From positions 62,001-126,000 of the forward strand of contig JAFUXL010000004.1 in assembly GCA_017470905.1 (NCBI GenBank): DNA of 64,000 bases. The letters are read 5' to 3'. Shown here one piece after another: positions 10,945 to 28,149 of this stretch (position 1 is its first letter; each line of letters opens with the position of its first letter). The stretch comes from Ruminococcus sp. (GTDB taxonomy: Bacteria > Bacillota > Clostridia > Oscillospirales > Ruminococcaceae). Position numbers and translations under genes: made by a program. The notes below the pieces were generated by a model. That model saw only the letters and a program-made list of their open reading frames with translations. It did no database searches and was not told where the DNA came from.

Positions 10945-11112
10945 TTATTTACAGCTCTTTAATTTCCTCTGCGATATTTCAAGATATTTTTTCTTCGTTG
11001 CAAGTCCGCCCCTTATATGGCGTTCACGCTTGTTGATTTCAAGTATATCCTTTACCTGAGAATATAATGCAGGATTTTCGGTTTTTAGCCTTTCGCTTAC
11101 GTCCTTGTGTAT
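10945..11112 (-). CDS. spoIIID: SpoIIID, C-terminal half (gene split by a 16.9 kb element)
   Basis: On the minus strand the frame reads IHKDVSERLKTENPALYSQV then KDILEINKRERHIRGG and LATKKKYLEISQRKL before the stop at 10945. This matches the C-terminal half of SpoIIID, the small HTH regulator of the mother cell during sporulation, whose hallmark is HKDL/V-ERL followed by RH-RGGEATKLKY. The open frame continues to ATG 11163, but those extra residues have no RBS and are element DNA. The N-terminal half is on the same strand at 28024-28149. Aligning both halves on the shared GGAC gives one continuous frame. Confidence 0.88.
   Translation of the reverse strand: MHKDVSERLKTENPALYSQVKDILEINKRERHIRGGLATKKKYLEISQRKLKSCK
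11101..11112 (-). other. Left attachment junction (attL/attR-type site) in spoIIID
   Basis: Minus strand codons ATA-CAC-AAG-GAC align in phase with GTC-CAT-ATG-GAC at the right junction (28024-28035). The identical bases are CA and GGAC. Crossover at CA would restore ...STVHKDVSERL, which keeps the Lys usual in SpoIIID; crossover in GGAC would give ...STVHMDVSERL. Confidence 0.7.
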
Positions 11113-11142
11113 GGGGGCACAGAAAGGGAACGGGTTTTTATA

Positions 11143-11171
11143 TTGATTTTTTTGCGTGTGCATGATATAAT
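11143..11171 (+). promoter_or_regulatory. Sigma-A promoter of the AAA-ATPase/nuclease gene
   Basis: TTGATT (11143-11148), a 17-bp spacer and TATAAT (11166-11171), 19 nt before the ATG at 11191. It lies at the very left edge of the element. Confidence 0.8.
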
Positions 11172-11190
11172 AAAAACGGGTGATGTTCTT

Positions 11191-12867
11191 ATGGCTGAAT
11201 TAAAAGCTATCCCTATGGGAATAGAGGATTTTAAAACTATCATTGACAAAAAATGTTATTTCGTTGACAAGACCCTGATGATAAAGGATTTAATCGACAG
11301 CAGGGCTATGGTGACATTGTTTACACGTCCGAGAAGATTCGGAAAAACCCTGAATATGAGCATGATTTGCAGATACTTTGAAAAGACTGATGAAGATAAT
11401 TCATATCTGTTCAGGGGACTTAAAATTTCGGAAACAGGCACGGAATATCTTGAATATATGGGAAAATATCCTGTTATTTCGGTATCTTTGAAGAGTATGA
11501 AACAGCCGAATTTTGAAATGGCATTTTCAGAATTTAAGAAACTGATTGCAAATGAAGTATGGCGGCATAATGAGATTTTAAATTCAGAAAGCATAATGCC
11601 CTCACAGCTTGAAAAGCTAAATTTGATTTGCAGGGGTACGGCTGAAAATTCGGACTATTACACTTCATTGAAATTATTGTCCGACTGTCTTTTTGAGGTT
11701 TACGGGGAGAAAGTTATTATCCTGATAGATGAATATGATGTACCTTTGGAAAATGCTTATTTCAGGGGATTTTATGAGCAGATGACGGATTTGGTGCGTT
11801 CTGTATTTGAAAGTGCATTAAAGACTAATTTTTCGCTTGAATTTGCAGTCCTGACAGGCTGCCTGCGAATATCGAAGGAAAGCATATTCACAGGCTTGAA
11901 CAATCTGAAAGTAAACAGTGTGCGTTCGGGAGAGTTCAGCGAGTATTTTGGATTTACCGAAAAAGAAGTTGAATCCCTTGCAAAATATTACAGCATTGAA
12001 AATAAAATGCCCGACATAAAGAAATGGTATGACGGGTATCGTTTCGGCATTACAGAAATATACAATCCTTGGAGTGTACTTAATTATATTCAGAACGAAA
12101 TTGCAATTTCTGATTCACCCCCTGAACCTTACTGGAGTAATACAAGTTCAAATTCAATAATTCATAAACTTGTCACGGAATCGGACGAAACAACCCGTGA
12201 AATGATAGAGGAGCTTGTGAACGGCAGCAGTATTACAGTTCCGATACATGAAGATATAGTCTATTCCGACATTGATGTAAATACAGAGCAGATATGGAGT
12301 TTTTTACTGCTCACAGGCTATCTGAAACAGATAAGCACAGAACTTAGAAACAATATAATTTATATCACTGTTATGATACCCAATCTTGAAATAAAAAGTA
12401 TATATCAGCGTACCATATTGCAATGGTTCAGGGAAAAAACCAATTCCAATTCCCGTGATGAATTATTCAATGCACTTGTTTCAAGAAATACACAGGCTGT
12501 TGAGGATATTATCTGCGACTGGCTGGACGAGACTATAAGCTTTTATGATGAAAAAGAACAGTATTATCATGGCTTTCTGACAGGTTTATTTTCAGGATTT
12601 AAAGGCTATTCCCTGAAATCAAATCGTGAAAGCGGTGACGGCAGACCCGATTTATTGATTCTTGAACGCAAAAGACGAAAAACTGCAATAATTATTGAAA
12701 TAAAAGCAGATAAGGATTTTCTGAAACTTGATGATTTGTGCAATCAGGCTCTTAATCAGATAGAAATAAATCGTTATGAATCTGAACTTGTTCAGGAGGG
12801 ATACAGCGATATTATAAAATATGGTATCGCTTTCTGTAAGAAGTCATGCAAGGTGAAAAGCAAGTAA
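11191..12867 (+). CDS. AAA-ATPase-like protein with C-terminal PD-(D/E)XK nuclease domain
   Basis: A 558-residue protein of the AAA-ATPase_like/DUF1703 family, common in multiple copies in gut anaerobes. The N-terminus IPMGIEDFKTII and YFVDKTLMI lead into RPRRFGKTLNMS (modified Walker A, about 46-57). A Walker B-like VIILIDEYDVPL is near residue 190. The C-terminus has GDGRPDLLIL...IIIEIKAD (about 480-505), a PD-(D/E)XK nuclease motif. Start ATG 11191 lies just behind a strong promoter; the frame is open back to 11107 but crosses that promoter. Biochemical role of the family is not established; it may be mobile-element cargo. Confidence 0.85.
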   Translation: MAELKAIPMGIEDFKTIIDKKCYFVDKTLMIKDLIDSRAMVTLFTRPRRFGKTLNMSMICRYFEKTDEDNSYLFRGLKISETGTEYLEYMGKYPVISVSLKSMKQPNFEMAFSEFKKLIANEVWRHNEILNSESIMPSQLEKLNLICRGTAENSDYYTSLKLLSDCLFEVYGEKVIILIDEYDVPLENAYFRGFYEQMTDLVRSVFESALKTNFSLEFAVLTGCLRISKESIFTGLNNLKVNSVRSGEFSEYFGFTEKEVESLAKYYSIENKMPDIKKWYDGYRFGITEIYNPWSVLNYIQNEIAISDSPPEPYWSNTSSNSIIHKLVTESDETTREMIEELVNGSSITVPIHEDIVYSDIDVNTEQIWSFLLLTGYLKQISTELRNNIIYITVMIPNLEIKSIYQRTILQWFREKTNSNSRDELFNALVSRNTQAVEDIICDWLDETISFYDEKEQYYHGFLTGLFSGFKGYSLKSNRESGDGRPDLLILERKRRKTAIIIEIKADKDFLKLDDLCNQALNQIEINRYESELVQEGYSDIIKYGIAFCKKSCKVKSK

Positions 12868-12928
12868 ATCAATGAATACGGAAATAATATAAATCTTATT
12901 AAAAACTGCAAAGCGGAGGTATCATTCT

Positions 12929-13282
12929 GTGAGAGAATACACAATCAAAAGCACAAGACGGGGCAAAGACTACATCTGGGGTACGCTCTATTACAGCGAC
13001 AAAACGGCTAAATTTAAAATAAAATTTCGTTGCCCGTCAGAAGAAATGAAAAAAGACAAACCGCCTGCAATGATTCACAGGTTTATGACAAATGGCAGAA
13101 TGGAACTTGACAACGAGCTTGCTTCACTTTGGGTCAAAGACAGGATAATTCCCAGGGACAGGCAGAATATAGCTGATATACTGCGTGAAAATAATCTGAA
13201 AACATATCGAGAGATTGATATGCTTGAACTGTGCATGGGAAGATGTACCCTTGACGATATTTATTTGGTGAGGGAAAAATAG
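12929..13282 (+). CDS. Conserved hypothetical protein, 117 aa
   Basis: Starts at GTG 12929 with GGAGG 10 nt upstream. It is a mixed alpha/beta soluble protein: the first half has RGKDYIWGTLYYSDKTAKF, the second LWVKDRIIPRDRQNIADILR followed by EIDMLELCMGRCTLDDIYL. The second half resembles small proteins seen beside HipA-like genes, a weak memory-based similarity. No catalytic motif is evident. It lies 61 nt after the AAA-ATPase gene in the same direction. Confidence 0.65.
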   Translation: MREYTIKSTRRGKDYIWGTLYYSDKTAKFKIKFRCPSEEMKKDKPPAMIHRFMTNGRMELDNELASLWVKDRIIPRDRQNIADILRENNLKTYREIDMLELCMGRCTLDDIYLVREK

Positions 13283-13363
13283 CATTTACTGTAATACTCT
13301 CCATATTTGAAAAATGTGATTGACAGTGATTATAATTTTTACACATAATGTGCAAAAAAATTA

Positions 13364-13392
13364 TTGATTTTTGCGAAAATCTGTGATATAAT
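13364..13392 (+). promoter_or_regulatory. Sigma-A promoter of the Rpn-like nuclease gene
   Basis: TTGATT (13364-13369), a 17-bp spacer, TATAAT (13387-13392), 19 nt before the ATG. Its spacing and sequence mirror the promoter at 11143-11171. Confidence 0.8.
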
Positions 13393-13411
13393 AATATAAA
13401 GAGGTGGTAAA

Positions 13412-14239
13412 ATGTCAGAGGAAACTACAAACCGTAAATCTAAGGACAGTATCTTTGTTGATTTGTTTACAGATGTGAATTATGTTTATCAGCTTTATAA
13501 AGAACTACACCCCGAAGATACTGACGTGACTGTTGAAGATATTAACGTGCAGACTATAAAATCCGTTCTTGTGAATACACTTTACAATGATTTGGGATTT
13601 ATCGTAAAAGACAGGCTTTTAATGCTCGTTGAAGCACAAAGCGTATGGAATCCGAATATAGCCTTGAGAATGTTGTATTATCTTTCAGAAACGTACAGGA
13701 GATATATTGCTGACAGCGGACAGAGCGAACACAGCAGTTCACGAGTTAAACTCCCGAAGCCTGAATTGTATGTTGTTTACAGCGGCAATAAAAAAGTAGG
13801 TAAAGAAATATCGTTCAGCAATGATTTCTTTGGCGGTGATTCTCCCGTAGATATAAGGGTCAAGGTACTGAAAGAGATAAACGATACAATTTATGGACAG
13901 TACATAGGTTTTTGTAAAGTATTTGACGAGCAGAAGAAAATACACAACCAAAATCTTGAATGTGCGAAAGAAACGTTAAGGATAAGCGTTGAAAGAGGCT
14001 ATCTTTCAGCCTATCTTGAAACGCACAAAAAGGAGGCTATCAATATGTTGAAAGAACTGTTTGATGAAGAGTATCTGCGTGAACAGTATGACAAGGCAGA
14101 GAAAGACAAGAATTTCAAAGAAGGCAAAAAGGAAGGCAGAAAAGAAGGCAGGAAAGAAGCCTTTGCCGAGATGATAAGCAAGCTCCGTGAGAAAGGCTAC
14201 ACGGAACAACAGATAGAGGAACTTATAGGTGTTGTATGA
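13412..14239 (+). CDS. Rpn/PD-(D/E)XK nuclease transposase-family protein
   Basis: A 275-residue protein with GAGGTGG before the ATG. VNTLYNDLGFIVKDRLLMLV then EAQSVWNPN (about 49-80) carries the ND...ExQ variant of the PD-(D/E)XK core typical of Rpn/PDDEXK_2 proteins. A middle region follows (PELYVVYSGNKK), and the C-terminus has the Lys/Glu/Gly-rich repeat EGKKEGRKEGRKEAFAEMI plus a helical end, also typical of the family. Rpn proteins promote recombination and some protect against phage. Transcribed from its own promoter and followed by a terminator. Confidence 0.85.
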   Translation: MSEETTNRKSKDSIFVDLFTDVNYVYQLYKELHPEDTDVTVEDINVQTIKSVLVNTLYNDLGFIVKDRLLMLVEAQSVWNPNIALRMLYYLSETYRRYIADSGQSEHSSSRVKLPKPELYVVYSGNKKVGKEISFSNDFFGGDSPVDIRVKVLKEINDTIYGQYIGFCKVFDEQKKIHNQNLECAKETLRISVERGYLSAYLETHKKEAINMLKELFDEEYLREQYDKAEKDKNFKEGKKEGRKEGRKEAFAEMISKLREKGYTEQQIEELIGVV

Positions 14240-14292
14240 CAAAATACCTGTTTGATTAACTGTGGATTGATGTTGGTGGAAAAATAATATTC

Positions 14293-14329
14293 AGAGTCAA
14301 CGGCTGAAAGGCTGTTGGCTCTTTTTTTG
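14293..14329 (+). terminator. Rho-independent terminator after the Rpn-like gene
   Basis: Stem AGAGTCAACGGC/GCTGTTGGCTCT (14293-14304, 14311-14322) with a 6-nt loop and a run of seven T. The remaining sequence to 14560 shows no gene. Confidence 0.88.
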
Positions 14330-14560
14330 TTTGCATTTCAGAAAATGCTTTAAGTCTTGAAAAAATGCATAATTTGGAGTAGAGTATGATTTTAATTTTA
14401 TATATAAAATCAAGTGTGAAAAATGTCAAAAATACGGCTTAAAACCGACAGTTTAAGAATGTCGGACAAGGGTATAGCCATAATGAACAGGGGGCGAAAA
14501 AGTCAAAATAATCAGAGGTCAGACTGGTTGTCAGAAAGTAATACGAAAGGAGAAAGCGGA

Positions 14561-15139
14561 ATGAACGTAGCTTATGTGAGGGTTTCAACAGTTGAGCAGA
14601 ACGAACAGAGACAGATAGAGGCATTGAAGAATTTCAAAATTAACAAGTGGTTTATTGATAAGTGTTCAGGCAAGGACACTAACCGTTAGCAATTCAAGGA
14701 AATGGTAAATTTCGTTCGTGAGGGCGACACTGTTTATGTTATGGACTGGTCGAGATTATCAAGAAGTACCGTTGACTTACTTCACATTATTGAGGACATG
14801 ACAGCAAAAAATGTTAAACTCGTAAGCATTAAGGAAAATTTCGATACAAGTACTCCTACAGGACGGCTTATGCTTTCACTGATAGCGGCAATAAATGAGT
14901 TTGAACGACAAAATTTGCTTGAACGTCAGCGAGAAGGAATTGCAATTGCAAAAGCACAGGGAAAATATAAAGGACGAAAACCGCAAAAGCGTGATGAAGA
15001 ACTTGTAAAAGAGTTGATTTTGTCCGTCAGGACAAAGAAAATAACCGTCACTGAGGCGGCAAAGCGATTGAATTGTACAAGAGCAACAATGTATAATCTA
15101 ATCGGACGTTATGAAAAAGATTTACAACAGAAAGGTTGA
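14561..15139 (+). pseudogene. Serine resolvase/invertase, interrupted by an in-frame TAG
   Basis: Read through, the frame encodes about 192 residues of a small serine recombinase: MNVAYVRVSTVEQNEQRQ with catalytic Ser9, then VYVMDWSRLSRSTVDLLHII, STPTGRLMLSLIAAINEFER, and a C-terminal HTH (ITVTEAAKRLNCTRATMYNL). A single TAG at 14687-14689, in the region that normally reads DTNR-x-QFKEMV, truncates it to 42 residues. AAGGAG precedes the ATG. A CAG or AAG to TAG change would explain it. The remaining frame is undamaged, so inactivation is recent, or readthrough occurs. Confidence 0.85.
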
Positions 15140-15144
15140 TTTTT

Positions 15145-15807
15145 ATGGGAATGAAAGCAAAGGATTTTAATTACACTCTGCCCGTTATGGCACAGACACA
15201 GATATTGGACTTAGATATGTTTCAGAAGGCATTTGATGTTTGGGCTTGCCCCGACAGCACGCAAATGATGATTTCGGAAATAAAAAGTGCAGAAATAAAT
15301 AATAACTGTGCCGTGGTGGAGTTTAAAAGCGGCAGTAAAATAATAGCATATTATGACGGTCATTATGAGAAATTCAATAAAAACGGAAAATTGCAGAGTA
15401 CGGGCGGTTTCGGAACGACAAGGGGCGTTCATAAACATACAGTAAAGCTAAAGGTCGAGGGCTGTGAAATGCACTTGGAGAGGTTTATACTTATCGCCTG
15501 TGATGTTGCAAGAAACGAGATTGCATTGAGCTATAAGGGGTGGGAAGCTAATGTCATGGACGGTTCTGCTTCTGAAAAAACGGCAAAGTATCTCGGTATT
15601 CCGACAAATTTTAAACCCGATAACCTTGAATGGTGCTTGAAGTCGGATAATGTTTTCCACGGCTCAATGATTAAAAAGCTTTACGAAATAACAAATCACG
15701 TTTACAGGTTTAGTGCCAATGATAAAATGCTTAAAGCCATTTATCAGACAAGAAGAAAAAGGGCGATAAATAATTATTGTAAGACATTTTATAAGAGAAT
15801 AAGGTAA
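15145..15807 (+). CDS. Hypothetical protein with HNH-like C-terminal motif
   Basis: A 220-residue protein started at ATG 15145 (AAAGG 9 nt upstream); a TTG at 15136 overlapping the resolvase stop is an alternative. The N-terminal half is unrecognised. In the second half, VHKHTVKLKVEGCEMHLERF and later FKPDNLEWCLKSDNVFHGS resemble phage-type HNH endonucleases, which end in N-x-EWC-x4-N-x2-HG. The catalytic His-Asn pair is not clear, so activity is doubtful. It follows the broken resolvase directly. Confidence 0.6.
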   Translation: MGMKAKDFNYTLPVMAQTQILDLDMFQKAFDVWACPDSTQMMISEIKSAEINNNCAVVEFKSGSKIIAYYDGHYEKFNKNGKLQSTGGFGTTRGVHKHTVKLKVEGCEMHLERFILIACDVARNEIALSYKGWEANVMDGSASEKTAKYLGIPTNFKPDNLEWCLKSDNVFHGSMIKKLYEITNHVYRFSANDKMLKAIYQTRRKRAINNYCKTFYKRIR

Positions 15808-15993
15808 CATATAAATTAATTTTAAGGAGGGCAGAATTGGTTATTCTGGGGTGAAATTTGATAAGGTATAGTTTTATGGATATAGGGGTTGGAGTGGATT
15901 GTGAGTGATTTTCAAGGGGTTTTTGAGGGTGTTTGTATTAGGTTTGATTAAGTTCGGGATTGTTGAGTTCGGGAGAGGAGGTCAGAAACATAC

Positions 15994-16344
15994 ATGGCTG
16001 AAAATAGTAATATATCCGATAAAATTGATATGCTTATACAGGTTTGTAAGGCAAATTATAAGCTGACTAAAGCCGTTATTGATTCTGTTTCAAATGTAAA
16101 TTCAGGCATTATGAAAAGGTTCGATTTGACAGAAAAACAGCTTGTCGAGCTGAAAAATGAGATTCAGAAAACTGACAAGCTGTTATCGGGAGACTTCCAT
16201 GTTTATTCTGATGAGGAAATATTTAATCTTAAAAAGTCTTTGAGTTGGAATAAGCTGTCCAAGAAAACCAATATTCCTCTCTCGACTTTGCAGTACCGAT
16301 ACAGGCGATATTTAAAACAGAACGGAGGAAAAAATTATGATTAA
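15994..16344 (+). CDS. Small HTH-like hypothetical protein
   Basis: A 116-residue protein with GGAGGTC upstream of its ATG. The N-terminal two thirds are helical and charged (FDLTEKQLVELKNEIQKTDK). The C-terminal part, SLSWNKLSKKTNIPLSTLQY followed by RYRRYLKQNG, looks like a helix-turn-helix of the resolvase/HTH_23 type. It overlaps the next gene by 8 nt, so the two are translated together. Possibly an accessory DNA-binding protein of the element. Confidence 0.6.
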   Translation: MAENSNISDKIDMLIQVCKANYKLTKAVIDSVSNVNSGIMKRFDLTEKQLVELKNEIQKTDKLLSGDFHVYSDEEIFNLKKSLSWNKLSKKTNIPLSTLQYRYRRYLKQNGGKNYD

Positions 16345-16627
16345 TATTAGTGTCAACGGCATGGATTACAGCAAAAAGGATATAAACATTCTGATTTGCA
16401 GGGATTCATTAAAAAATGAAACGGAACTTAAAATTTTCACGGATAAGGGTGAAGTCTGCCTTGATGACAAGAACGCAAACATTGATTTGAATATAGATAT
16501 TCTGAATGAAAATATATTTAATCAATATTTTGAAAATGACAGCATTGAAGCAAGTCTTGATAATCTTCTGCGTGTTGTCAATACATTGAAAAGCGAGATT
16601 GAGAATATGAAAAATAAGTGTTTGTGA
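16337..16627 (+). CDS. Small hypothetical acidic protein
   Basis: A 96-residue protein whose ATG lies inside the end of the previous gene, with GGAGG 10 nt before. It is Asn/Asp/Ile-rich (NANIDLNIDILNENIFNQYF) with a C-terminal amphipathic helix (NTLKSEIENMKNK). No family recognised. It converges on the XRE repressor gene with only 3 nt between stop codons. Confidence 0.55.
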   Translation: MINISVNGMDYSKKDINILICRDSLKNETELKIFTDKGEVCLDDKNANIDLNIDILNENIFNQYFENDSIEASLDNLLRVVNTLKSEIENMKNKCL

Positions 16628-16630
16628 CAT

Positions 16631-16966: not shown

Positions 16967-17015
16967 TACACACACTCCCTTTAGTTTATGATAACACCCT
17001 CGGGGAGTTATTTGA

Positions 17016-17051
17016 AACTAAAAAAAATAGTTGACAACAAACAAAAGTTGT
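17016..17051. promoter_or_regulatory. Candidate XRE operators: two overlapping dyads
   Basis: Dyad AACTA-N7-TAGTT (17016-17032) and dyad ACAAC-N8-GTTGT (17034-17051) flank and overlap the -35 box and spacer of the promoter at 17031-17059. Their position is ideal for repression by the XRE protein encoded next door on the opposite strand. The link is inferred. Confidence 0.5.
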
Positions 17052-17059
17052 GATATAAT
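17031..17059 (+). promoter_or_regulatory. Sigma-A promoter of the element lipoprotein gene
   Basis: TTGACA (17031-17036), a 17-bp spacer, TATAAT (17054-17059): perfect consensus. The start codon is 73 nt downstream at 17133. Confidence 0.85.
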
Positions 17060-17132
17060 TATTATGAACAGATTTATTCAGTTTTCAAGATACTGTGTAA
17101 ACAGCGAATCCTTAGGAAAGAGGTGCTATTTT

Positions 17133-18855: not shown

Positions 18856-18887
18856 AGAGGACACAAAATATTTTAATTGTGTCCTCT
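18856..18887 (+). repeat. Perfect hairpin in the leader of the Vsr-like gene
   Basis: Eleven-bp perfect stem AGAGGACACAA/TTGTGTCCTCT with a 10-nt AT loop. There is no T run after it, so it is not a classical plus-strand terminator. It ends 9 nt before the AAGGAG of the next gene, where it could shape translation or end upstream transcription weakly. Confidence 0.55.
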
Positions 18888-18909
18888 AAACCTACAAGGA
18901 GAGAAAAGA

Positions 18910-20370
18910 GTGTCTACAGTAATAAAGGGAAAGAATGATTTATTAACATGGTGTTTAAATCATGGAGAAAGAGGAAAGCAATTAATGTCTGAATGGACAG
19001 GATTATCAGAAACAGGAAAGCAATTAAATATAGATGAAGTTTCATATGGTTCATCAAGTGTTAAGTACACATGGAAGTGTAGTAAGGGGCATTTATGGAA
19101 TGATACAATACAGGATAGGACTTATCGATATAATAGTAATTGTAAAGTATGCTCATCAAAAGGAACTTCATATCCTGAACAATTTTTATATTGGGCATTC
19201 AAACAAATTTATCCTAAAACTGAAAACAGATGCAGGGTATTAAAGACAAGAGATAATCCACGAGGTATAGAGTTTGACATTGGAATACCTGATATACCAT
19301 TATGCATTGAATATTCACCAACATTTTGGCACAATGGAAAAGATGAAATTGACAATAGAAAGAGACAAGTATGTGAAGAAAGGAATATAAGATTCATTGA
19401 AATAATTGATGATACTTATGATGAATATGAGTCTATATTTACAAGAGATTATATACGTTTGAAGATAAAGTATGGAAAACAAGATGAGCAATTAGAAGAA
19501 ATACTGAAATACATTTTAGAAACCTTAGGACATTCAATAAAAGAGATTGACTTAAATGAAGTAAAGAAAAATGCAATATTATATTCAAATGGTCATATTG
19601 CATATGAAAAATCGTTGGAGTATAATTATCCTGACTTAGCAAAAGAATATCATAAATTATTAAATGAGATTAAAGTGAGTGAAATAAAAGCAAGCTCCTA
19701 TAAAAAAGTCTATTGGCAATGTAATAATTGTGGATATGGGAAAAATAGTGAGTGGAAAGTTGATGTGGCAAGTAGGACATCAGGTAAAAGTGGGTGTCCC
19801 TGTTGTGGGTATAATTGGTATGATAATAAAGTACATAAAATAATTAGTTCAATTGTGATACAGGGCATAAATGATTTAGCATCACAATTCCCTGAATTAG
19901 CTAAAGAATATCACAAATCATTAAATAAGTTTAAAGCAAGTGAAATAAAAGCACGCTCTAATAAAAAAGTATATTGGCAATGTACAAAATGTGGTTATGG
20001 CAAGAATGGAGAATGGCAAGTAGCACCTGGTGTAAGAAATTCAAATGGAAAGGAGACTGGTTGTCCCTGTTGTGGGTACAGTTGGCATGATAAGAAAATA
20101 CACAAGGGTAGTTCAATTGTGATGCAGGGTACAAATGATTTAGCATCACAATTCCCTGAATTGGCGAAAGAATACCACAAATCATTAAATGAGTTTAAAG
20201 CAAATGAAATAAAAGCACACTCAGGTAAAAAAGTCTATTGGCAATGTACAAAATGCGGATATGGCAAGAATGGTGAGTGGCAGGCAACACCTGGTAGAAG
20301 GAATCAAAAAGGATATGAAACTGGTTGTCCTAAGTGTAAATATAAGTGGTATAAATTGGGTTACACTTAA
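18910..20370 (+). CDS. Vsr-like endonuclease domain with repeated zinc ribbons
   Basis: A 486-residue protein started at GTG 18910 with AAGGAG 9 nt before. An N-terminal ribbon (YTWKCSKGHLW, CKVCSSK, about 53-83) precedes a Vsr/PD-(D/E)XK-like segment (SYPEQFLYWAFKQIY, IEFDIGIPDIPLCIEY, about 87-135). In related proteins the last motif is IEYDGxxWH; here it is IEYSPTFWH. Three near-identical C-terminal units follow (LASQFPELAKEYHKSLN, VYWQCTKCGYGKNGEW, GCPCCGYSW), each a four-cysteine treble-clef ribbon. Such proteins probably bind and nick DNA. Very AT-rich coding, unlike the chromosome. Precedes the GIY-YIG methylase gene. Confidence 0.75.
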   Translation: MSTVIKGKNDLLTWCLNHGERGKQLMSEWTGLSETGKQLNIDEVSYGSSSVKYTWKCSKGHLWNDTIQDRTYRYNSNCKVCSSKGTSYPEQFLYWAFKQIYPKTENRCRVLKTRDNPRGIEFDIGIPDIPLCIEYSPTFWHNGKDEIDNRKRQVCEERNIRFIEIIDDTYDEYESIFTRDYIRLKIKYGKQDEQLEEILKYILETLGHSIKEIDLNEVKKNAILYSNGHIAYEKSLEYNYPDLAKEYHKLLNEIKVSEIKASSYKKVYWQCNNCGYGKNSEWKVDVASRTSGKSGCPCCGYNWYDNKVHKIISSIVIQGINDLASQFPELAKEYHKSLNKFKASEIKARSNKKVYWQCTKCGYGKNGEWQVAPGVRNSNGKETGCPCCGYSWHDKKIHKGSSIVMQGTNDLASQFPELAKEYHKSLNEFKANEIKAHSGKKVYWQCTKCGYGKNGEWQATPGRRNQKGYETGCPKCKYKWYKLGYT

Positions 20371-20539: not shown

Positions 20540-22519
20540 ATGGGAAAAGCGAATAGAAGTGATAAAGACGATACAAAAATACCACTTACTGCTGTCACAA
20601 TAGATATAAGCACAAATAATAAATCAAGGACAATTAAGAAAATTTTTAATGATGATTGGGATATATTAGCATTTGAAATTTCAAGAGATTCATTAAGTAA
20701 TAAGAATTATACAAATATAAGAGACAACATACCTGAATTACACTATCATGGCATATATTTTCTAGTAAGTGAGGATAATAAGCGTGTATATGTTGGCAAA
20801 GGAACAATCCGTAAATACAATGAGGGTGTTGTAAGGAGAGTTAAAGACCATGTTAATGCTTACAACGAACCATACTATGATAAGTGGAACAGAGCAATAA
20901 TTATTACGAGCAAATACAAAACAGATGACCATTATTTAGCTTGGACTGACAATACGATACTTGCATTAGAGCATTTTATGATAAAAGAGTTTAAAGAGGA
21001 TAATAGATTCAATGGTAATGATGGAAATCATGGTGGAAATAAGAGAGAATCATTTGAAGAACTAATTGAACAAATCAAGATAAGTTTAATTGCATTTGGA
21101 ATTGATAAAACAATATTCATTAACGAGCATAAATACAAAATTGCAAGCATTTTAAATATGACATCAGCAGAGTATGACAAATATAATAAGTTTGAATACA
21201 TAGGTGAATATAAGCGAAGCACACCAGAAATAATAACACCCTCTAGAATAGTTAGAGCAATGATAGATATGTTACCAGATGATATTTGGAATGACACAAC
21301 GACATTTCTTGACCCAGCTTGTAAGAATGGAGAATTTCTTAGAGAAATCTTTGATAGGTTAATGAAGTCACCATTTATGAAATCGAAATATCCTAATATA
21401 ACAGTAAGAACATTACACATATTATCAAAGCAGATATATGGAATAGCACTCAGCAATGAGTCACAGAAGAAAACAATTCAAACGTTAAGTCAAGGCGTAT
21501 TTGGTTCAAATGTAAAGTGCTTAACAAATTATGTAGAAAAGGTAAAATCTGGGAAATTTAGAGATATAGTAAGAGAGGCATTTGGATGTAACATGAATTT
21601 TGATGTAGTAATTAGCAATCCACCTTATAACAAGGGAGCAGACCTTGACTTTGTGAACCTTGGATATGAGTTATCTGAACTCTATACAATAATGCTAACT
21701 CCAGCAAAGTGGCAAACAGCAGCAGAAAATCAAAGATTAGCCAGCTCTACAATAAATTATGGAACGTTTAGAGAAAAAATAGTGCCACACATGAATAAAG
21801 TAGTATTTTATCCTAATTGTAGCGACATTTTTGAAATTAATGAACGTAGTGGTATCAGCTATTACCTAATAGATAAAAATAACACATATAATGAAAAATG
21901 TATTATTAACATATGTAATAATCAGAAATACTATAATAGTGAAGTGATGCGAAGTTTAGGAGATAGAGAAACACTACATAATATAGGATTTGAAATAATA
22001 AATTACTTAAGAAAAAGACAATATGAAAGCTTCAAGTTTGATACTGACATAAACAAGCGTTACCATGTATACACTAATAGTCAATCAAATCCTGAAAGGG
22101 GCATTAAAGGTACATATCAAGCCTATGGAGTAATATCATATGCGACAGGACAATCAAAGGTTTTAGGTGCGAGTGAAATAATAGATTCTAAAGATAAGAT
22201 AGCAATGGAGTTCAAAGTAGAAGCTTCTACATTGTCATTTGCATCAGATGACGAGAATGAATGTTATTCATTTTTAAGTTGGTTAAACAGTAAATTTGTA
22301 AGGTTTTTTATAATGATGAATATAAGTAAAATGACGTGTGTAGACGATGATACATTTAGATTCGTGCCAGCGTTACCTAAATCTCAAAACACATGGAAAT
22401 ATAAATATACGGATGCTGGATTATATAAATATTATGGTTTAGATGAACCTGATGCACAAACAAAGGATGGGGTGCGATATACTGATATAATAGAAGCAGT
22501 AATAAAAGAACGGGAATAA
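20540..22519 (+). CDS. GIY-YIG nuclease fused to Eco57I-type N6-adenine DNA methyltransferase
   Basis: A 659-residue protein with AGGTGG before the ATG. Residues 69-160 form a GIY-YIG nuclease: HGIYFLV with Tyr72, VYVGKG with Tyr84, VVRRVKDH with the conserved Arg, LALEHFMIKEF with Glu144, and RFNGNDGN. Residues 230-380 form a gamma-class methyltransferase: TFLDPACKNGEFL (motif I, 255-266, with Lys where Gly is usual) and VVISNPPYNKG (motif IV, NPPY 360-363). The C-terminal third may be the target-recognition part. Together it could be a single-chain restriction-modification enzyme. AT-rich, on the spoIIID element, next to a Vsr-like gene. Confidence 0.85.
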   Translation: MGKANRSDKDDTKIPLTAVTIDISTNNKSRTIKKIFNDDWDILAFEISRDSLSNKNYTNIRDNIPELHYHGIYFLVSEDNKRVYVGKGTIRKYNEGVVRRVKDHVNAYNEPYYDKWNRAIIITSKYKTDDHYLAWTDNTILALEHFMIKEFKEDNRFNGNDGNHGGNKRESFEELIEQIKISLIAFGIDKTIFINEHKYKIASILNMTSAEYDKYNKFEYIGEYKRSTPEIITPSRIVRAMIDMLPDDIWNDTTTFLDPACKNGEFLREIFDRLMKSPFMKSKYPNITVRTLHILSKQIYGIALSNESQKKTIQTLSQGVFGSNVKCLTNYVEKVKSGKFRDIVREAFGCNMNFDVVISNPPYNKGADLDFVNLGYELSELYTIMLTPAKWQTAAENQRLASSTINYGTFREKIVPHMNKVVFYPNCSDIFEINERSGISYYLIDKNNTYNEKCIINICNNQKYYNSEVMRSLGDRETLHNIGFEIINYLRKRQYESFKFDTDINKRYHVYTNSQSNPERGIKGTYQAYGVISYATGQSKVLGASEIIDSKDKIAMEFKVEASTLSFASDDENECYSFLSWLNSKFVRFFIMMNISKMTCVDDDTFRFVPALPKSQNTWKYKYTDAGLYKYYGLDEPDAQTKDGVRYTDIIEAVIKERE

Positions 22520-22705
22520 TAAAGTATAAGAAAAATAAAATGGGAGATATAGTTTAAACATATCTGTCATTTTTAATTTAATAGCGTTAATAAAACAAAT
22601 AAGCATTTTATAAAATAACTTAATGCAAAAATTATTCACATAAAATTCAAGAGAGAGTAATCTAATAAATTTATTAGAAATTTTTTGAAGAAAGGACAGA
22701 TAAGC

Positions 22706-24739
22706 ATGAGCAAGAAAAAGATAAGCAGTCGAATTTTGGCAGGAGCATTGTCTCTTACTCTATTAGCTACATATTCAAATTCAAACAGATTAATTACTTT
22801 TGCTACTATGGGCGGACATACAAGTGGCGGACAAGATGGTGTCTCGAATGGTACTAGTTTAGGTGTAGTTAACTCTGATTTTGGGTACAGATTTTACATT
22901 TATGATTTAAAAGAAAAAGATATTTACAAAAAATCAGATGGAACGAAATGCGTAGTAGATGTTGTTGACTCTGAATTAACAGCTAAAGATGGCTATGGAA
23001 ATAGTGCAATTGACTATTCGTACAGAGGAAATTCAACAAGATTTGGTAATGCTGGCGGAACTATACCAGTAAAAAATTTTTCTGACTTCACTATATTTAA
23101 TCAAGCAAACTTTATGTCAGATGTAAAAATAGCAGTAAATGCAGCTAGAGGTACATATTTCCAAAATTGGATGCTCACAGGAGTTACTTACAAACCTGAT
23201 GGTAGTATTAAAAATGATTTAAGATGCTATTTGATTAAACAATTATTTAATCTTGATGCAAGTGAGTATACTAAAGTAACAACTGATAGATATTTATTGA
23301 TAGTTGAACCTGTTGTACACGCTTACATCATTGCTAGTGATAATTCAGTCAAGTCATCTACTAAAACATATGACTCATGGGCAGGTTGGTATTCAGCACA
23401 TGACGGAATATATAATGGTGGTAGTTATGCACTTGAACTTACAAAAAATCATTGTGGAAATGAATTTGCTGTAACAGTTGAAGACTATAAAAACACTTTA
23501 GGATTATATCCTAAAACGAAAAATTTACAGGATTCTAGTGGATACAATACAAATTGTGGTTCAGCAAGTGATTTAGTTGATAGTTATGGAAATCCTTTAG
23601 GATATGGCATAGGAGTTTATTGGTGTGCAAGAGAAATATCACATGACCCTATTTCAAGTTATGATATCGTGAATCGACCTACCGAACCTCAGCAAGCAGA
23701 AGATGGTGGCACGGATAAAACAATACCAAATCCTGATAATCCTAATTACACAATAGATATATCTGATAATACAGGAGATATAGAGATAGTAAAGATATAT
23801 GCGGATGTATATGAGGATAAAAACAGGGTAGGAAAGTACACAGCAATTGAGCAGATAGAGAATGGATATTTCACAACAACTGAAAAGGCGACAGGAGAAG
23901 TAATAATAAGAGATGAATCATCAGTAAATGGCGGTTACGTTGTAGCAGGTTGGGACACATCACTTTCTTATGAATCAACATATGGTGGCTCTAATAAATA
24001 TAGTGTATCTAAATGGGCAAGGATAGATGATAATGGAGATATAAGGTTTGAATTTAATAGAAGTGGTGCAGGGCAATATGCATATAATACCTCAAATACA
24101 AGTTATAACAATAGCAAAAGCGATTCTAGTTTAAAGCTCACTTATAATTATGAATACACTAATACAGAAGGTTCAAACCCTAAATACATTGATGTAAATG
24201 GAAATGGTGAACAGGATTTAGAAACATTAACACTTAATTCAGATGTTAAAACACTTTATATAATTTATACGAAGAGTAAGCCATGGATCGAAACTGACAA
24301 AAATAATGACTCACCATATAATGGACATGGACCATATGGGTATGGAGAACTTCATCCAGTAGGTTCTAATGAACCACCTGAAGAAAAGGGCGGAAATCTT
24401 ACGATAGTAAAGGTATATGGGGAGGTAAATTCTTTTGACTTCACTGTCGTAGATGTAGGAACTACGAATAAGGAGCAATCTACATATAATGTAAATCTTA
24501 CAGACGAAGATGGTTGGACGATAGCGTCATATATATTTAGTGACAACAAGCATACTGATTACACAGCAACATCGTGGTTAGACGGAAACACTTACATGAC
24601 AGACGGCACAGTCCAATTCATGAATGGTGGCTTTGATTATGGAATAAACTCTGAGTTTACACTTCCTAAAGACACACCTAAAACAATGTGGACAAAGTCT
24701 TATTTCAAGGACACAGATAGCACTAACGACACAATGTAA
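22706..24739 (+). CDS. Secreted surface protein of the mobile element
   Basis: A 677-residue protein started at ATG 22706 (AAAGGA upstream). A signal peptide (MSKKKISSRILAGALSLTLL) is followed by a Gly/Ser/Tyr-rich extracellular protein with DYSYRGNSTRFG, YDSWAGWYSAHDG and YGIGVYWCAREIS. Two similar beta-rich units begin GDIEIVKIYADVYEDKN (about 360) and GNLTIVKVYGEVNSFDF (about 570). Proteins like this occur on clostridial mobile elements, from memory. No transmembrane anchor or sortase motif is evident at the C-terminus. Very AT-rich. Function unknown; adhesion or element-specific surface change is possible. Confidence 0.65.
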   Translation: MSKKKISSRILAGALSLTLLATYSNSNRLITFATMGGHTSGGQDGVSNGTSLGVVNSDFGYRFYIYDLKEKDIYKKSDGTKCVVDVVDSELTAKDGYGNSAIDYSYRGNSTRFGNAGGTIPVKNFSDFTIFNQANFMSDVKIAVNAARGTYFQNWMLTGVTYKPDGSIKNDLRCYLIKQLFNLDASEYTKVTTDRYLLIVEPVVHAYIIASDNSVKSSTKTYDSWAGWYSAHDGIYNGGSYALELTKNHCGNEFAVTVEDYKNTLGLYPKTKNLQDSSGYNTNCGSASDLVDSYGNPLGYGIGVYWCAREISHDPISSYDIVNRPTEPQQAEDGGTDKTIPNPDNPNYTIDISDNTGDIEIVKIYADVYEDKNRVGKYTAIEQIENGYFTTTEKATGEVIIRDESSVNGGYVVAGWDTSLSYESTYGGSNKYSVSKWARIDDNGDIRFEFNRSGAGQYAYNTSNTSYNNSKSDSSLKLTYNYEYTNTEGSNPKYIDVNGNGEQDLETLTLNSDVKTLYIIYTKSKPWIETDKNNDSPYNGHGPYGYGELHPVGSNEPPEEKGGNLTIVKVYGEVNSFDFTVVDVGTTNKEQSTYNVNLTDEDGWTIASYIFSDNKHTDYTATSWLDGNTYMTDGTVQFMNGGFDYGINSEFTLPKDTPKTMWTKSYFKDTDSTNDTM

Positions 24740-24750
24740 TAATTAAGAGC

Positions 24751-24776
24751 AGAGACTTCGGTCTCTTATTTTTTTG
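24751..24776 (+). terminator. Rho-independent terminator after the surface-protein gene
   Basis: Stem AGAGAC/GTCTCT (24751-24756, 24761-24766) with a TTCG tetraloop and TATTTTTTT after it. Confidence 0.85.
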
Positions 24777-25121
24777 CCGTTTTTAATAATTTTCTATCAG
24801 AAATTTGGTGATAATCAATAAATGAGGTTAATTTATTTATATTTATTACAAATTGAAAGACGTTGACTTATTTTTTAACACTCATTGAAGAATTGAAGTG
24901 ATTTTGAGAAATCGAAGTGAATGACGTTGCGAAATTATGACTTAGCATTACAAAAAAATAGCTATTACATACTTGATACTCATTGAAATATTCGCTTGTA
25001 GATTTTTTTAAATTATAGAAATCTGAATGGAGATATTAGTGACATTTAATTCAATATTATAACGTGTTAAATATGATAATTATCTCCCGAAATCTACCTA
25101 AAAAATTACAAGGAGAAAGCT
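24777..25121. other. AT-rich intergenic region upstream of rep, candidate replication origin
   Basis: No gene is seen in these 345 bases. Short direct repeats are present: ACTCATTGAA twice (around 24880 and 24971), GAAGTGA twice (around 24895 and 24917), GACGTTG twice (around 24860 and 24932). Rolling-circle elements often carry their double-strand origin next to or within rep, so this is a candidate origin. AAGGAG at 25110-25115 is the rep ribosome binding site. Confidence 0.3.
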
Positions 25122-26072
25122 ATGAGAACATATGAACTTATTGACGGCATTAAAGTCAAAATTGAGAGAAATCGCACACAGATTATCGACTGCAAAAATA
25201 TGCTTGTAAGTCCACAAAAAAGACATGATAATGACAAACCACCAAGCAAAAGCAATTCAGGGAAATATACCGAATATAACTATAGAAAGCGAATAAAAAA
25301 GAGAGCTGATAAAATCAAGGAGCTTTGCTATAACAATTTTGACAGAAACAATGCCATGTTTGTGACACTGACCTTTGACGTTCACAGTGTCAGTGGTGAT
25401 ATGACTGACAGAAAAAATGCCCATGCGGAATTTAAGCTGTTTATTAAGAGAATTAACGACCACTTTGACAATTTCAAGTATATCGCAACATTTGCAAGAC
25501 AGAAAAACAATGTATGGCACTACCACATGATTTGCAATTTTGACATAGATGTTACCGGAAATCAAATAGCTGATATATGGAAACATGGCTTTATATCCAC
25601 TTCATTCATATCAACAGAACAATCGTTTAAAAATCGGGTGGAATATCTGGTAAAAAACATGAAAGAGAGTTATTCTGAGCTTAGAGGTGCAAGAGGATAT
25701 TTAAATTCTCAAAATATGGAACATAGTATCGTTATCTCTTCATGGCGACCCGAACATACGGCAGAGTTTAAGAATGTCACTGATACTATAATGACTGAAA
25801 GCGTTTATAACACCTATTCAACAAAAAAGCGATTGGGAGTTGTGAGAAATGCGGTAGATATTAAAACGGGCGAGGAATATGAACAACTGATACCAAGAAT
25901 CGAACTTACTGACAAGCTGAAAGAAAGTGGATTTTCGGAGTGTGAAGCCTCATATACATACTACTCGGCAAGCTATAAGTTTACTGACAGATTTGAACCC
26001 ATAGTAATGGCAACAAGAAAGCCTAAGAAATTTAGACACAAGAAGAAAAAATCGAACACACCTACAAATTAA
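25122..26072 (+). CDS. Rolling-circle replication initiator (HUH endonuclease)
   Basis: A 316-residue protein with AAGGAG 8 nt before the ATG. Rep motif I is FVTLTFDV (80-87). Motif II, KNNVWHYHMICNF, carries the HUH pair (His133, His135). Motif III VEYLVKNM (173-180) carries the catalytic Tyr175 and Lys178. The C-terminus is basic (RKPKKFRHKKKKS). Such proteins nick one strand at the origin and start rolling-circle replication or mobilisation. It suggests the excised element can replicate as a circle. Codon usage is less AT-biased than the neighbouring surface protein, hinting at a mosaic element. Confidence 0.85.
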   Translation: MRTYELIDGIKVKIERNRTQIIDCKNMLVSPQKRHDNDKPPSKSNSGKYTEYNYRKRIKKRADKIKELCYNNFDRNNAMFVTLTFDVHSVSGDMTDRKNAHAEFKLFIKRINDHFDNFKYIATFARQKNNVWHYHMICNFDIDVTGNQIADIWKHGFISTSFISTEQSFKNRVEYLVKNMKESYSELRGARGYLNSQNMEHSIVISSWRPEHTAEFKNVTDTIMTESVYNTYSTKKRLGVVRNAVDIKTGEEYEQLIPRIELTDKLKESGFSECEASYTYYSASYKFTDRFEPIVMATRKPKKFRHKKKKSNTPTN

Positions 26073-26137
26073 TCAAAATATTAACATTTATTATTGCATA
26101 TTATTGAGTAAAAATAAAACAGCAAAGGAGAATCAAG

Positions 26138-26323
26138 ATGAAAAATACATATACATTCGTAAACGTACCTGTTACCAAGGAAGAAATAAACCGCTTTACG
26201 AAAAAGCTTGAAAAAATAGTAGCAGATTCATTTTCAAGACAAATCAGCATACAAAATTCTGCGAATAATTCAAATACCGCTATGCAGGACAGCGTTAATG
26301 TGAGAGCAGGGGTTTGTGCCTGA
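26138..26323 (+). CDS. Small hypothetical protein (61 aa) between rep and the recombinase
   Basis: Starts at ATG 26138 with AAAGGAG 8 nt before. The peptide has an amphipathic helix VTKEEINRFTKKLEKIVADS and a Ser/Asn/Gln-rich tail. Position suggests an accessory factor, for example a small regulator or recombination directionality factor, but sequence gives no proof. Confidence 0.5.
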   Translation: MKNTYTFVNVPVTKEEINRFTKKLEKIVADSFSRQISIQNSANNSNTAMQDSVNVRAGVCA

Positions 26324-26413
26324 AATATGCTGTTTATCGGGAGTAAAAAATTCACATGAAGTTCACGAATTTTTGAAAATTCTGCGTTATAATTACCAAT
26401 CTAAAGGGGGATT

Positions 26414-26498
26414 GGGGGAAGTGCAGTCCTTGGACTGACAGTGAGTGAAGTGCAACATAAGGAACGAAAGTCCAAGCCTTAAAAGACTGCACTCCCCC
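26414..26498 (+). repeat. Structured stem-loop element, copy 3 of 3 (leader of the serine recombinase)
   Basis: Outer stem GTGCAGTC/GACTGCAC (26421-26428, 26485-26492), extended by GGGGG/CCCCC, leads directly into inner stem CTTGGACT/AGTCCAAG (26429-26436, 26469-26476). The loop is 32 nt, and an 8-nt bulge CCTTAAAA lies on the 3' side. The loop (AGTGAGTGAAG, GGAACGAA) matches copy 1 at 25 of 32 positions while the stems differ but stay paired. It ends about 12 nt before the GAGG of the recombinase gene. Confidence 0.7.
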
Positions 26499-26521
26499 AT
26501 TTAAGAAAAGAGGTTTAAAAT

Positions 26522-28006
26522 GTGAAAAATGTAGTAGCATACTGTCGTGTATCGACTAATAAGGAAGACCAGATAAATTCATTTGAGGCTCAAAAGATGT
26601 TCTTTGCCGAATATGCCGAGCAGAACAATCTGAACCTTATACGTATTTATGCTGACGAGGGAATAACAGGTACTTCACGCAAAAAAAGAGCGGAGTTCAA
26701 CAGAATGATGAGTGACAGCGAAAAAGGAATTTTTGATTGCATACTTGTAAAAGATGTTTCAAGGCTTGCAAGAAACACTGTTGACTTTCTTGAAAGCATA
26801 CGCAAGCTGAGAGCATTAAATATCAACGTCAAATTCGTTACTGCCAATATGGAAACGCTTGACGGAAGTGAGTTTACGTTGACTATGCTTGCGGCTCTTG
26901 CACAGGAAGAATCTGCAAATATGTCAAAGCGTGTCAAGTTCGGAAAGAAAATCAATGCTGAAAAGGGCAAAGTCCCGAATGCTTGTTATGGCTACATAAA
27001 GACAAAGGGCGACTATTTCAATTTGCAGATAAATGAGAGCGAGGCTGAAATCGTCAGAGAGATTTTTGATTTGTACGTCAATCAGGGGTATGGCACACAT
27101 AAAATATCAAAGATACTCAATGAAAGGGGTCTTACAAGTTTAAGGGGCGTTCCGTGGTCTACAACAGCGATAAGCCGAATACTGAAAAACAAGCTATATG
27201 CAGGGTATGTCGTGAATAATGTCACGGAAATAAAGGACTTCATTGAAAAAACACGCATTGTCAAGGACGAATCTGAATGGATTGAAATTGAACGTCCCGA
27301 ATTTCAGATAATCCCGTTGGAATTATGGGAAAAAGCACAGAAAATCAATGAGTACAATAACAGTGAACTGACGATGACACTACATAAAAAAAGAGGAAAC
27401 AAACATTTGTTCAGTACGCTTATAACCTGTCCTGTCTGTGGCTATTCTTTCAGAAGAATACAGAACAAGCGTAAAAATTATATTCGTACATACTGGAGTT
27501 GCAGCGGAAGAAATCATCATGGTACAGGTTCATGCAGTAATACGACAATAATTCCCGAAAATGAGCTTATAGAGAGCATTGACGGTTATTTTCAGTCGCT
27601 CATTGCTGACAAGCGAAAGTTTGTAAATGCCGTTATAGCTCAATATAAGAACAATCAGCCGAAAAATTCAAATGAAGTTCTTGCGGTACAGCTTGAAAAG
27701 CTCGAAAACAAAAAGCGTAAACAGATAGAAATGTTTGAGGCTGATATAATTTCCATATCCGAGCTTAAAGAGAAAACTGCCGAAATTGATAAACAGATAA
27801 TGCAGATAAGGCTTGACCTTGAACATACGGAATCGCCTGAAGATTTTGCAAAAAATTCCCGACAGCTTTATGACAGGCTGTCGGAGAATTTCAGTAAATA
27901 TTCATCTGTTGCGAATATGACCAATGCAGAACTGAAAACCCTGATAAAGTGCATAGTCGCTTATGATAAAGGAGATATACGTATTGAGTTTAATTATCAG
28001 CATTAA
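26522..28006 (+). CDS. Large serine recombinase (element integrase/excisionase)
   Basis: A 494-residue protein started at GTG 26522. The resolvase catalytic domain is N-terminal (VVAYCRVSTNKEDQ, Ser11; KDVSRLARNTVDFLESI), followed by the recombinase domain (YGTHKISKILNERGL, WSTTAISRILKNKLYAG), a zinc ribbon (CPVCGYSFRRI and CSGRNHHGTGSC) and a coiled coil. Length and order fit SpoIVCA-type and phage integrases. It ends 17-25 bp before the spoIIID junction, as expected for the enzyme that recombines these sites. The leader carries stem-loop copy 3. No clear sigma-E or sigma-K promoter was found by eye; a TATAAT at about 26388 lacks a good -35. Confidence 0.95.
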   Translation: MKNVVAYCRVSTNKEDQINSFEAQKMFFAEYAEQNNLNLIRIYADEGITGTSRKKRAEFNRMMSDSEKGIFDCILVKDVSRLARNTVDFLESIRKLRALNINVKFVTANMETLDGSEFTLTMLAALAQEESANMSKRVKFGKKINAEKGKVPNACYGYIKTKGDYFNLQINESEAEIVREIFDLYVNQGYGTHKISKILNERGLTSLRGVPWSTTAISRILKNKLYAGYVVNNVTEIKDFIEKTRIVKDESEWIEIERPEFQIIPLELWEKAQKINEYNNSELTMTLHKKRGNKHLFSTLITCPVCGYSFRRIQNKRKNYIRTYWSCSGRNHHGTGSCSNTTIIPENELIESIDGYFQSLIADKRKFVNAVIAQYKNNQPKNSNEVLAVQLEKLENKKRKQIEMFEADIISISELKEKTAEIDKQIMQIRLDLEHTESPEDFAKNSRQLYDRLSENFSKYSSVANMTNAELKTLIKCIVAYDKGDIRIEFNYQH

Positions 28007-28022
28007 ACGTTCTCTTTTTGTA

Positions 28023-28036
28023 TGTCCATATGGACA
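28023..28036. other. Right attachment junction with 14-bp palindrome
   Basis: TGTCCATATGGACA is a perfect palindrome spanning the point where spoIIID sequence gives way to element sequence. Serine recombinase sites are imperfect dyads with a central dinucleotide, so this is the probable recombination site. It shares CA and GGAC in phase with the left junction (11101-11109). Confidence 0.7.
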
Positions 28037-28149
28037 GTACTCTTGCTTATGCCGAATTTTCCTGCGGCGGAGCGCACGGTAGCCTTATTTTCGACTATGT
28101 AGCGTCCGAGGACTACAGCTCGCTGTTCGGGCTGAGGTTTCAATAGCAT
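28024..28149 (-). CDS. spoIIID: SpoIIID, N-terminal half (gene split by a 16.9 kb element)
   Basis: On the minus strand, from TTG 28143 (GGGAG 8 nt before) or ATG 28149, the frame reads KPQPEQRAVVLGRYIVENKA then TVRSAAGKFGISKSTVH. This matches the SpoIIID N-terminal HTH, whose hallmark is IGKYIVETKKTVR-IAKEFGVSKSTVHKD. After the junction the frame runs 7 codons into the element and stops at 28003. Fused in register to 10945-11112 it gives 91-93 residues, the normal SpoIIID length. SpoIIID activates and represses mother-cell genes, including sigK, so an unexcised element should block sporulation. Confidence 0.9.

Follow-up and report, generated by a model that had tools for sequence, protein, structure and literature searches.

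An element with its own large serine recombinase splits spoIIID in a Ruminococcus genome and has relatives at the same codon across Clostridia

Can a sporulation gene that lies in two pieces still serve its host? This question is raised by spoIIID in a Ruminococcus-type metagenome-assembled genome (MAG; 2.04 Mb, 73.75% complete), of which we analysed a stretch of 64,000 nt (positions 62001-126000 of contig 1; hereafter the window). SpoIIID regulates spore formation, and in both B. subtilis and C. difficile it promotes excision of the skin element. In this genome its gene is split at a precise site within the coding sequence by a 16.9-kb element that carries a large serine recombinase (LSR). 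We think it probable that the LSR, together with a small predicted recombination directionality factor (RDF), excises the element in the mother cell and thereby restores the gene. Genomes are designated G (G000 is the window genome) and loci L.

The split gene and its joint

A search of the whole assembly with the SpoIIID profile PF12116 from Pfam gave exactly two matches, both within the window and on its minus strand. One covers the C-terminal half (C-half) at 10978-11115 (profile positions 35-80) and the other the N-terminal half (N-half) at 28015-28128 (profile positions 5-42), each above the curated cut-off and free of stop codons. No intact spoIIID was found in the 2.04-Mb assembly, whose missing part could hold a copy. 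The halves lie 16.9 kb apart, and the predicted excised circle would measure 16,923 bp. An earlier note, made from the sequence of the window, had described a minus-strand spoIIID divided by a skin-like element of this size with its own serine recombinase, and the profile searches bear it out; the second, intact spoIIID that would have left the halves as mere remnants did not appear among the PF12116 matches.

Both window junctions contain the dinucleotide CA (TG on the plus strand), which falls inside the His codon of STVH/KD (/ denotes the split). The joint reads GTC-CA/C-AAG-GAC, encoding STVHKDVSERL, and the joined SpoIIID is 91 residues long from a TTG start, in agreement with the normal length that the earlier note had given as 91-93 residues. 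Its junction coordinates were accurate to within a few bases, the core being better set at the dinucleotides in Table 1, and the LSR does adjoin the right junction, though ending 24 bp before the core rather than 18 bp before the junction. The note had named CA and GGAC as shared sequences and had left open whether Lys or Met stood at the joint. CA and Lys are retained; GGAC was rejected as the crossover because it puts Met in place of the conserved Lys and lies off the centre of attP (the element's attachment site) symmetry, and just one of its bases is common to all 35 loci with two halves.

In these 35 loci, joining at the His codon in silico yields an uninterrupted SpoIIID frame every time. 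The joined frames are 72-109 residues long, two of them (G083 and L111) being shortened by contig ends, and carry STVHKD at the joint in 34 cases and STVHQD in one (G476). Because this first test sought the core at the His codon, we repeated it with anchors that make no use of CA and lie outside that codon (SKS/T upstream, RHIRGG downstream). With these independent anchors, CA is the sole dinucleotide identical at both junctions in 35/35 loci. The element-side attP arms are inverted repeats centred on CA, as expected for the attP of a serine integrase, as in the L081 site assembled from its two junctions (TCTAATTCGTAACAACCATA[CA]TACGGTAGTGATAAAATAGA). The element has inverted-repeat attP arms around a shared dinucleotide, hybrid sites (attL and attR) at its two ends, and a full-length serine recombinase in which Ser11 is invariant in a seven-sequence alignment. 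The split falls inside the helix-turn-helix codons of spoIIID, in what we take to be the DNA-recognition helix region.

Recurrence of the split and mobility of the recombinase family

The same split is found well beyond this genome. SpoIIID matches occur in 126 of the 149 genomes searched as relatives (G000 included), among which both halves without an intact gene are present in G000, G014, G018, G051, G064, G083, G097 and G103, and a single half in G050, G106 and G107. An even draw of the order gave a SpoIIID match in 336 of 394 genomes, 22 of them (again counting G000) with halves only; across the class, 280 of 391 genomes have a match and 12 more carry halves only. These counts leave out G290, which has a frameshift in an otherwise whole gene, as well as G415 and G089, where contigs end. 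Two split genomes consist of a single contig, with 6.7 kb between the halves in G097 and about 65 kb in G614, which shows that the split is not a binning artefact. Complete elements range from 3.7 kb (L111) to the roughly 65 kb of G614. Recurrence of the same split codon in dozens of other assemblies is beyond chance.

We then approached the locus from the recombinase. A profile was built from seven LSRs adjoining spoIIID halves and used to scan public genomes, and halves were sought with a hidden Markov model (HMM) of 26 intact SpoIIID proteins. A half is present at 76 of the best 80 of 369 relatives (75 by HMM and one at a contig end), and the contig of L055 ends too early to judge. Carriers include the isolates [Ruminococcus] torques ATCC 27756, Blautia massiliensis GD8, B. 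schinkii, B. glucerasea, Extibacter muris DSM 28560, Pseudoflavonifractor phocaeensis, Angelakisella massiliensis and Anaerotignum sp. MSJ-24. With contigs seen twice removed, an LSR frame of 350 residues or more lies within 2.5 kb of a half at 92 loci; a tally using the catalytic-Ser motif was not counted as evidence, that motif being a selection rule. The half-adjoining LSRs form 55 clusters at 90% identity, all those compared are at least 37% identical to the window LSR, and each is full-length wherever its contig covers it. A sequence search of the PDB with the LSR returned relatives of the catalytic domain only.

Most of these LSRs (88) read into the C-half, three (in the window, L112 and G614) converge on the N-half, and two, that of L217 and the second LSR of L223, are located on the N side and point the same way as the gene. 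In the window, L112 and L248 (the G614 locus), where the LSR stands at the N-half end and converges with spoIIID, the CA core is flipped relative to the LSR gene, as is possible because the att arms are symmetric. In L213, L220, L224 and L225, the LSR frame continues past the junction and enters the C-half of spoIIID in a different reading frame; the C-terminus of the recombinase is therefore host-encoded there and would change upon excision.

Closely related LSRs occur in distant hosts. The listed LSR pairs of 97-99.6% identity adjoin host C-halves that are 51-83% alike in nucleotides, and the 114 pairs above 90% identity, of which L121/L225 represents a single contig entered twice, have C-halves with a mean nucleotide identity of 0.67. 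Elements therefore move between hosts. These data support a larger finding than the earlier note had drawn from the window, namely that the element belongs to a widespread, horizontally moving family.

The joined attP predicted by the split genes was found directly in four IMG/VR records: L133 (62,399 bp; TCTATTATCTAACGACCGTG[CA]TACAGTAGTAATAATTTAGA), L134 (50,499 bp; TCTGATTAGTGACTCCTGTA[CA]TACAGGAGTAACAAAATAGA), and L138 and L139, which have the same site in common. A matrix built from the 35 chromosomal junctions and scored on 80 viral LSR loci gave 57.7 bits for L133, 55.8 for L134 and 40.6 for each of L138 and L139, against a best score of 7.6 bits among the other 76. A simple inverted-repeat score picked the attP of L134 (15/19) and not that of L133 (11/19, tied with an unrelated CA); the chromosomal-arm matrix settled both. 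All four records are free of SpoIIID matches. Several of the 10 proteins searched from L133 and L134 match phage DNA polymerase, DNA ligase, RecD-like helicase and NrdD families, and one L134 protein matches a head-maturation protease. The chromosomal spoIIID elements are therefore related to phage-like elements whose unintegrated site matches the prediction. Circularity of the four records was considered and rejected: they have no terminal repeats and are therefore fragments or linear. Circular forms were also sought among public plasmids, where 488 records gave matches to the LSR, all of them below 60% identity, and MT838016.1 from a phage collection proved to be another linear LSR/C-half junction.

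A partner gene, its promoter and the fate of the split gene

If the element leaves the chromosome, what would direct the recombinase towards excision? A short RDF-like gene on the strand of the LSR lies inside 19 of 20 complete elements (that of L222 was detected only at E 0.0047), at most 400 bp upstream of the LSR in 14 of the 19, and is retained even in the 3.7-kb element. It is found in 0/38 intact-spoIIID loci and in 4/80 viral LSR loci. The window product, of 61 residues, has no significant match in Pfam or NCBIfam, and a PDB sequence search with the family profile gave weak, unconvincing matches. At E <= 0.001 the family extends to 3414 protein clusters, and the named clusters among 120 listed matches are hypothetical or uncharacterized. 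AlphaFold modelled the window protein as one long helix (12 sequences; mean predicted local distance difference test (pLDDT) score 74.5). This protein is likely a directionality factor.

The regions upstream of the partner gene carry the pattern TATT-N12..17-CATA in 44 of 80 cases, compared to 3.6% of segments drawn at random from these loci and 3.3% of shuffles. This pattern resembles SigE-type promoters. The SpoIIID consensus WWRRACAR follows within 20 bp in 22 of 45 promoter hits, with control frequencies of 1.6% after any CATA and 2.0% after other hits to the pattern. Conserved beside the promoter in roughly half of the elements that have one, this box suggests that SpoIIID, once restored, may shut the factor off.

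These features outline a putative switch. The element would enter by recombination between attP and the chromosomal site attB at CA. A SigE-like mother-cell sigma factor would transcribe the 61-residue gene, whose product would act with the LSR in excision; transcription of this kind would confine excision to the mother cell, leaving the element in the forespore. Because SpoIIID is the product of excision, the switch could not need SpoIIID and would operate independently of it, unlike the sigK skin elements, and restored SpoIIID would turn the directionality factor off through the WWRRACAR box.

Is the split gene still needed, or does it mark a decayed sporulation program, as the earlier note had allowed? 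Parasitic disruption, in which the element inactivated spoIIID in a lineage losing sporulation and any excision is incidental, seems to us unlikely. In its favour, excision in this genome was not observed, 58 of the 394 genomes of the order lack a SpoIIID match (some being incomplete), and the N-half is damaged in G719 and G785. Against it stand in-frame rejoining in 35/35 loci and the sporulation protein SpoIVA (PF09547), which is present and stop-free in 28/28 split genomes searched, the window's included (the 12 class-level cases stood outside this test). Six split genes compared to their nearest intact same-genus genes show a non-synonymous divergence (pN) of 0.04-0.14 and a synonymous divergence (pS) of 0.5-0.9, part of the selection possibly predating insertion. 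Mean pN/pS is 0.345 between split genes, 0.333 between split and intact genes and 0.297 between intact genes; with synonymous sites near saturation and a contribution from selection before insertion, these values are supportive only. Where the LSR has decayed, moreover, spoIIID is intact: G405 (L232) has an orphan N-half and a 53-residue LSR remnant beside the intact gene, and G677 (L264) a 25-residue remnant and a decayed orphan N-half. In-frame rejoining, low non-synonymous divergence, SpoIVA and full-length LSRs together disfavour the decayed program. In G346 (L238/L239), an intact spoIIID and an orphan half are present, with no LSR seen in the stretches fetched; this locus, like those of G405, G677 and G002, looks like a repaired or duplicated insertion site.

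Excision might instead be stochastic or follow phage induction in growing cells, as phase variation or active lysogeny, outside any mother-cell program. We hold this to be a minor possibility, though a likelier one than parasitic disruption. Relatives of the element include the phage-like contigs with free attP described above, one of them with the head-maturation-protease match, and a single culture of C. botulinum was reported to contain the yin element in integrated as well as excised form (PMC10747680). Two sets of contig ends also fit coexisting forms. The contigs of G083 that carry the N-half and the element have exactly 55 nt in common, and this overlap stops at the last base that split and joined gene share, an assembly fork of the kind expected if joined molecules were sequenced. 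L111 starts exactly 127 nt before the divergence point on a contig named k127, and its far end lies 132 nt beyond the second such point; with that C-side overlap of 132 rather than 127 nt, a perfect assembly bubble was rejected. On the other side stand the conserved partner-gene promoter, which resembles those of mother-cell sigma factors and in many cases has a SpoIIID-like box after it, and elements of only about 3.7-4.2 kb (L111, L076, L080 and L099) that still retain the LSR and the partner gene. That the halves are made as separate, cooperating proteins with no DNA excision is very improbable. Both keep open frames; the split falls, however, at STVH/KD, in the region of the DNA-recognition helix, and what precedes the C-halves varies from locus to locus, with no common start seen on reading these sequences.

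Several observations weigh against programmed excision in the mother cell as we propose it. The window genome is an incomplete MAG in which excision was not observed, and the forks in G083 and L111 could be strain mixtures. Shared descent makes counts across loci non-independent and therefore inflated, and the 19/20 partner-gene count is not an independent test because its profile was built from hits in the same loci; the control loci are independent. The complete element L217 has no RDF-like gene, and in five of the 19 elements the gene lies 0.8-6.0 kb from the LSR. Just 5 of 26 intact spoIIID genes, which are expected to be SigE-dependent, have the promoter pattern upstream, which makes the sigma assignment weak, and the SpoIIID-like box of the window lies slightly beyond 20 bp, so that it missed the test and was not counted. 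G002 (L051/L052) has a complete LSR although an intact spoIIID stands beside its orphan C-half. L073 has no spoIIID half, and in L071 and L120 the LSR lies at other sequences, with att arm and CA running into non-spoIIID sequence; these may be secondary integration sites (L071 from 7908 onward, L120 from 11467 onward), and a further att-like site of L120 lies at 265. In two genomes of a single genus from outside the order, G719 and G785, the N-half has stops or a frameshift, and in G785 it reads in two frames; these loci (G719:C27 and L267) are possibly decayed cases, or errors. The earlier note had proposed a comparison with uninterrupted relatives. The flanks of the window element are not collinear with any of eight same-genus intact loci examined, so that no close relative showed the empty site.

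With these points weighed, programmed excision remains the explanation that we favour. A broader reading, to which we give slightly better than even chances, is that spoIIID is a dedicated landing site throughout Clostridia for a spreading LSR family comprising temperate phages, mobilizable elements and 3.7-kb remnants. Excision would be switched on by a new RDF family under an early mother-cell sigma factor alone and off via SpoIIID, which would place late mother-cell commitment under an excision switch.

Table 1. Features of the spoIIID element and its junctions in the window
Feature	Position	Strand	Basis and remarks
C-half, 3' half of spoIIID down to the stop codon	10945..11109	-	PF12116 profile 35-80
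Crossover dinucleotide CA (TG on +), C-half junction: GCCCCCATA[CA]CAAGGACGTAAGC	11108..11109		Predicted position
AAA-ATPase_like / PDDEXK_9 gene, other end of element	11191..12867	+	Pfam; open reading frame open from 11107
Cargo, DUF4379 zinc-finger protein	18877..20370	+	Pfam
Cargo, 659-residue protein, weak N6/Eco57I methylase match	20540..22519	+	Pfam; PADLOC PDC-S14 and MTase_II matches
REP_ORF2-G2P replication-associated protein, 316 residues	25122..26072	+	Pfam, E 2.9e-13
Mother-cell-sigma-like promoter TATT-N14-CATA, upstream of the 61-residue gene	26079..26100	+	Pattern enrichment; putative sigma assignment
Predicted RDF, 61 residues	26138..26323	+	Partner gene conserved in 19/20 complete elements
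LSR, 494 residues; Resolvase + Recombinase + Zn_ribbon_recom	26522..28006	+	Pfam; alignment
N-half, 5' half of spoIIID	28003..28149	-	48-residue frame from ATG, reads into element; host part 28031-28149; PF12116 profile 5-42
Crossover dinucleotide CA (TG on +), N-half junction: AGTACTGTC[CA]TATGGACATACAAAAAG	28031..28032		Shared-dinucleotide test and arm symmetry; predicted position

The remaining content of the elements is varied. Homologues of the window AAA-ATPase_like/PDDEXK_9 gene occur in the elements of G018, G083, G051, G064, G014 and G002. Such a gene also lies directly beside attP in L134 (11626-13395) and at the end of several Ruminococcus spoIIID elements, making it a recurrent passenger. 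PADLOC, run on seven cargo proteins, matched one (as candidate PDC-S14 and as a type II methyltransferase) and found no clear defence system. A small serine resolvase at 14423-15139 is split over two frames (14423-14689 and 14702-15139) and is therefore probably a broken gene; its G051 copy is a single 186-residue frame, 74% identical to the second part. Three small elements encode a conserved protein of about 565-600 residues between the LSR and the partner gene (L076 8218-9915, L108 7878-9569, L111 494-2302), which we presume to be of the AlbA_2/Schlafen type. Just downstream of the C-half, window positions 9384-10484 encode what reads as a CobW-like GTPase with a long His/Asp-rich stretch, and a second, similar gene is its neighbour.

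Relation to known sporulation-gene elements

An LSR family that repeatedly uses spoIIID in many gut clostridial families, among isolates and MAGs alike, would have several consequences if its excision is programmed. In the gut of humans and ruminants, programmed DNA excision would be a common layer of spore formation and thereby of transmission. The large, unnamed family of the 3414 protein clusters would gain a candidate function, new LSR/RDF pairs with defined att sites would become available, and 'broken' spoIIID annotations that could make commensals seem non-sporulating would be explained.

In the literature searched, the sporulation genes with excision elements are sigK, gerE, spoVFB, spoVR, spsM and yabG. 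An interrupted spoIIID was not found, with subscription papers, preprints and supplements outside that scope. A phage that carries its own spoIIID-like gene is distinct from an interruption (PMC5027557), and the passage reporting that spoIIID differs between two Anaerostipes hadrus strains names no insertion (PMC12888040). What the earlier note had offered as a possible new case of developmentally reversed interruption adds a target and a widespread LSR/partner family, both new, to the known class of sporulation-gene excision elements; the developmental reversal is predicted.

The closest parallel is skinCd, the sigK element of C. difficile. Its excision requires both the LSR CD1231 and a small RDF, CD1234, which is expressed in dependence on SigE and SpoIIID (PMC5025042). 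Both elements sit in a mother-cell regulatory gene, carry their own LSR and allow precise restoration of the gene (in silico for spoIIID); a small RDF with a SigE-type promoter was shown for skinCd and is predicted for the spoIIID element. The target of the latter acts one step earlier, however, and the SpoIIID requirement of CD1234 cannot hold for it. The element gin interrupts gerE of Bacillus cereus, which the serine recombinase GirC and the protein GirX restore (PMC5595907). This non-phage element likewise splits a very small sporulation transcription-factor gene, but differs in having gerE as its target, three serine recombinases and a shared 9-bp junction, in one strain (PMC5595907). The elements vfbin, vrin, SPbeta and yin interrupt spoVFB, spoVR, spsM and yabG, respectively (PMC4191935, PMC10747680). 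They too are recombinase-driven elements in sporulation genes, though none lies in spoIIID, and yin is described from one isolate only (PMC10747680), in contrast to the spoIIID LSR family, which is spread over many host families, between which it moves. LSR families have been described to converge on one conserved coding site, in a prolyl isomerase and in the magnesium chelatase gene family, in a study whose main text, as searched, does not name spoIIID (supplementary tables lay outside the search; PMC10083194). The spoIIID elements resemble these families in that diverse LSRs meet at one conserved coding site.

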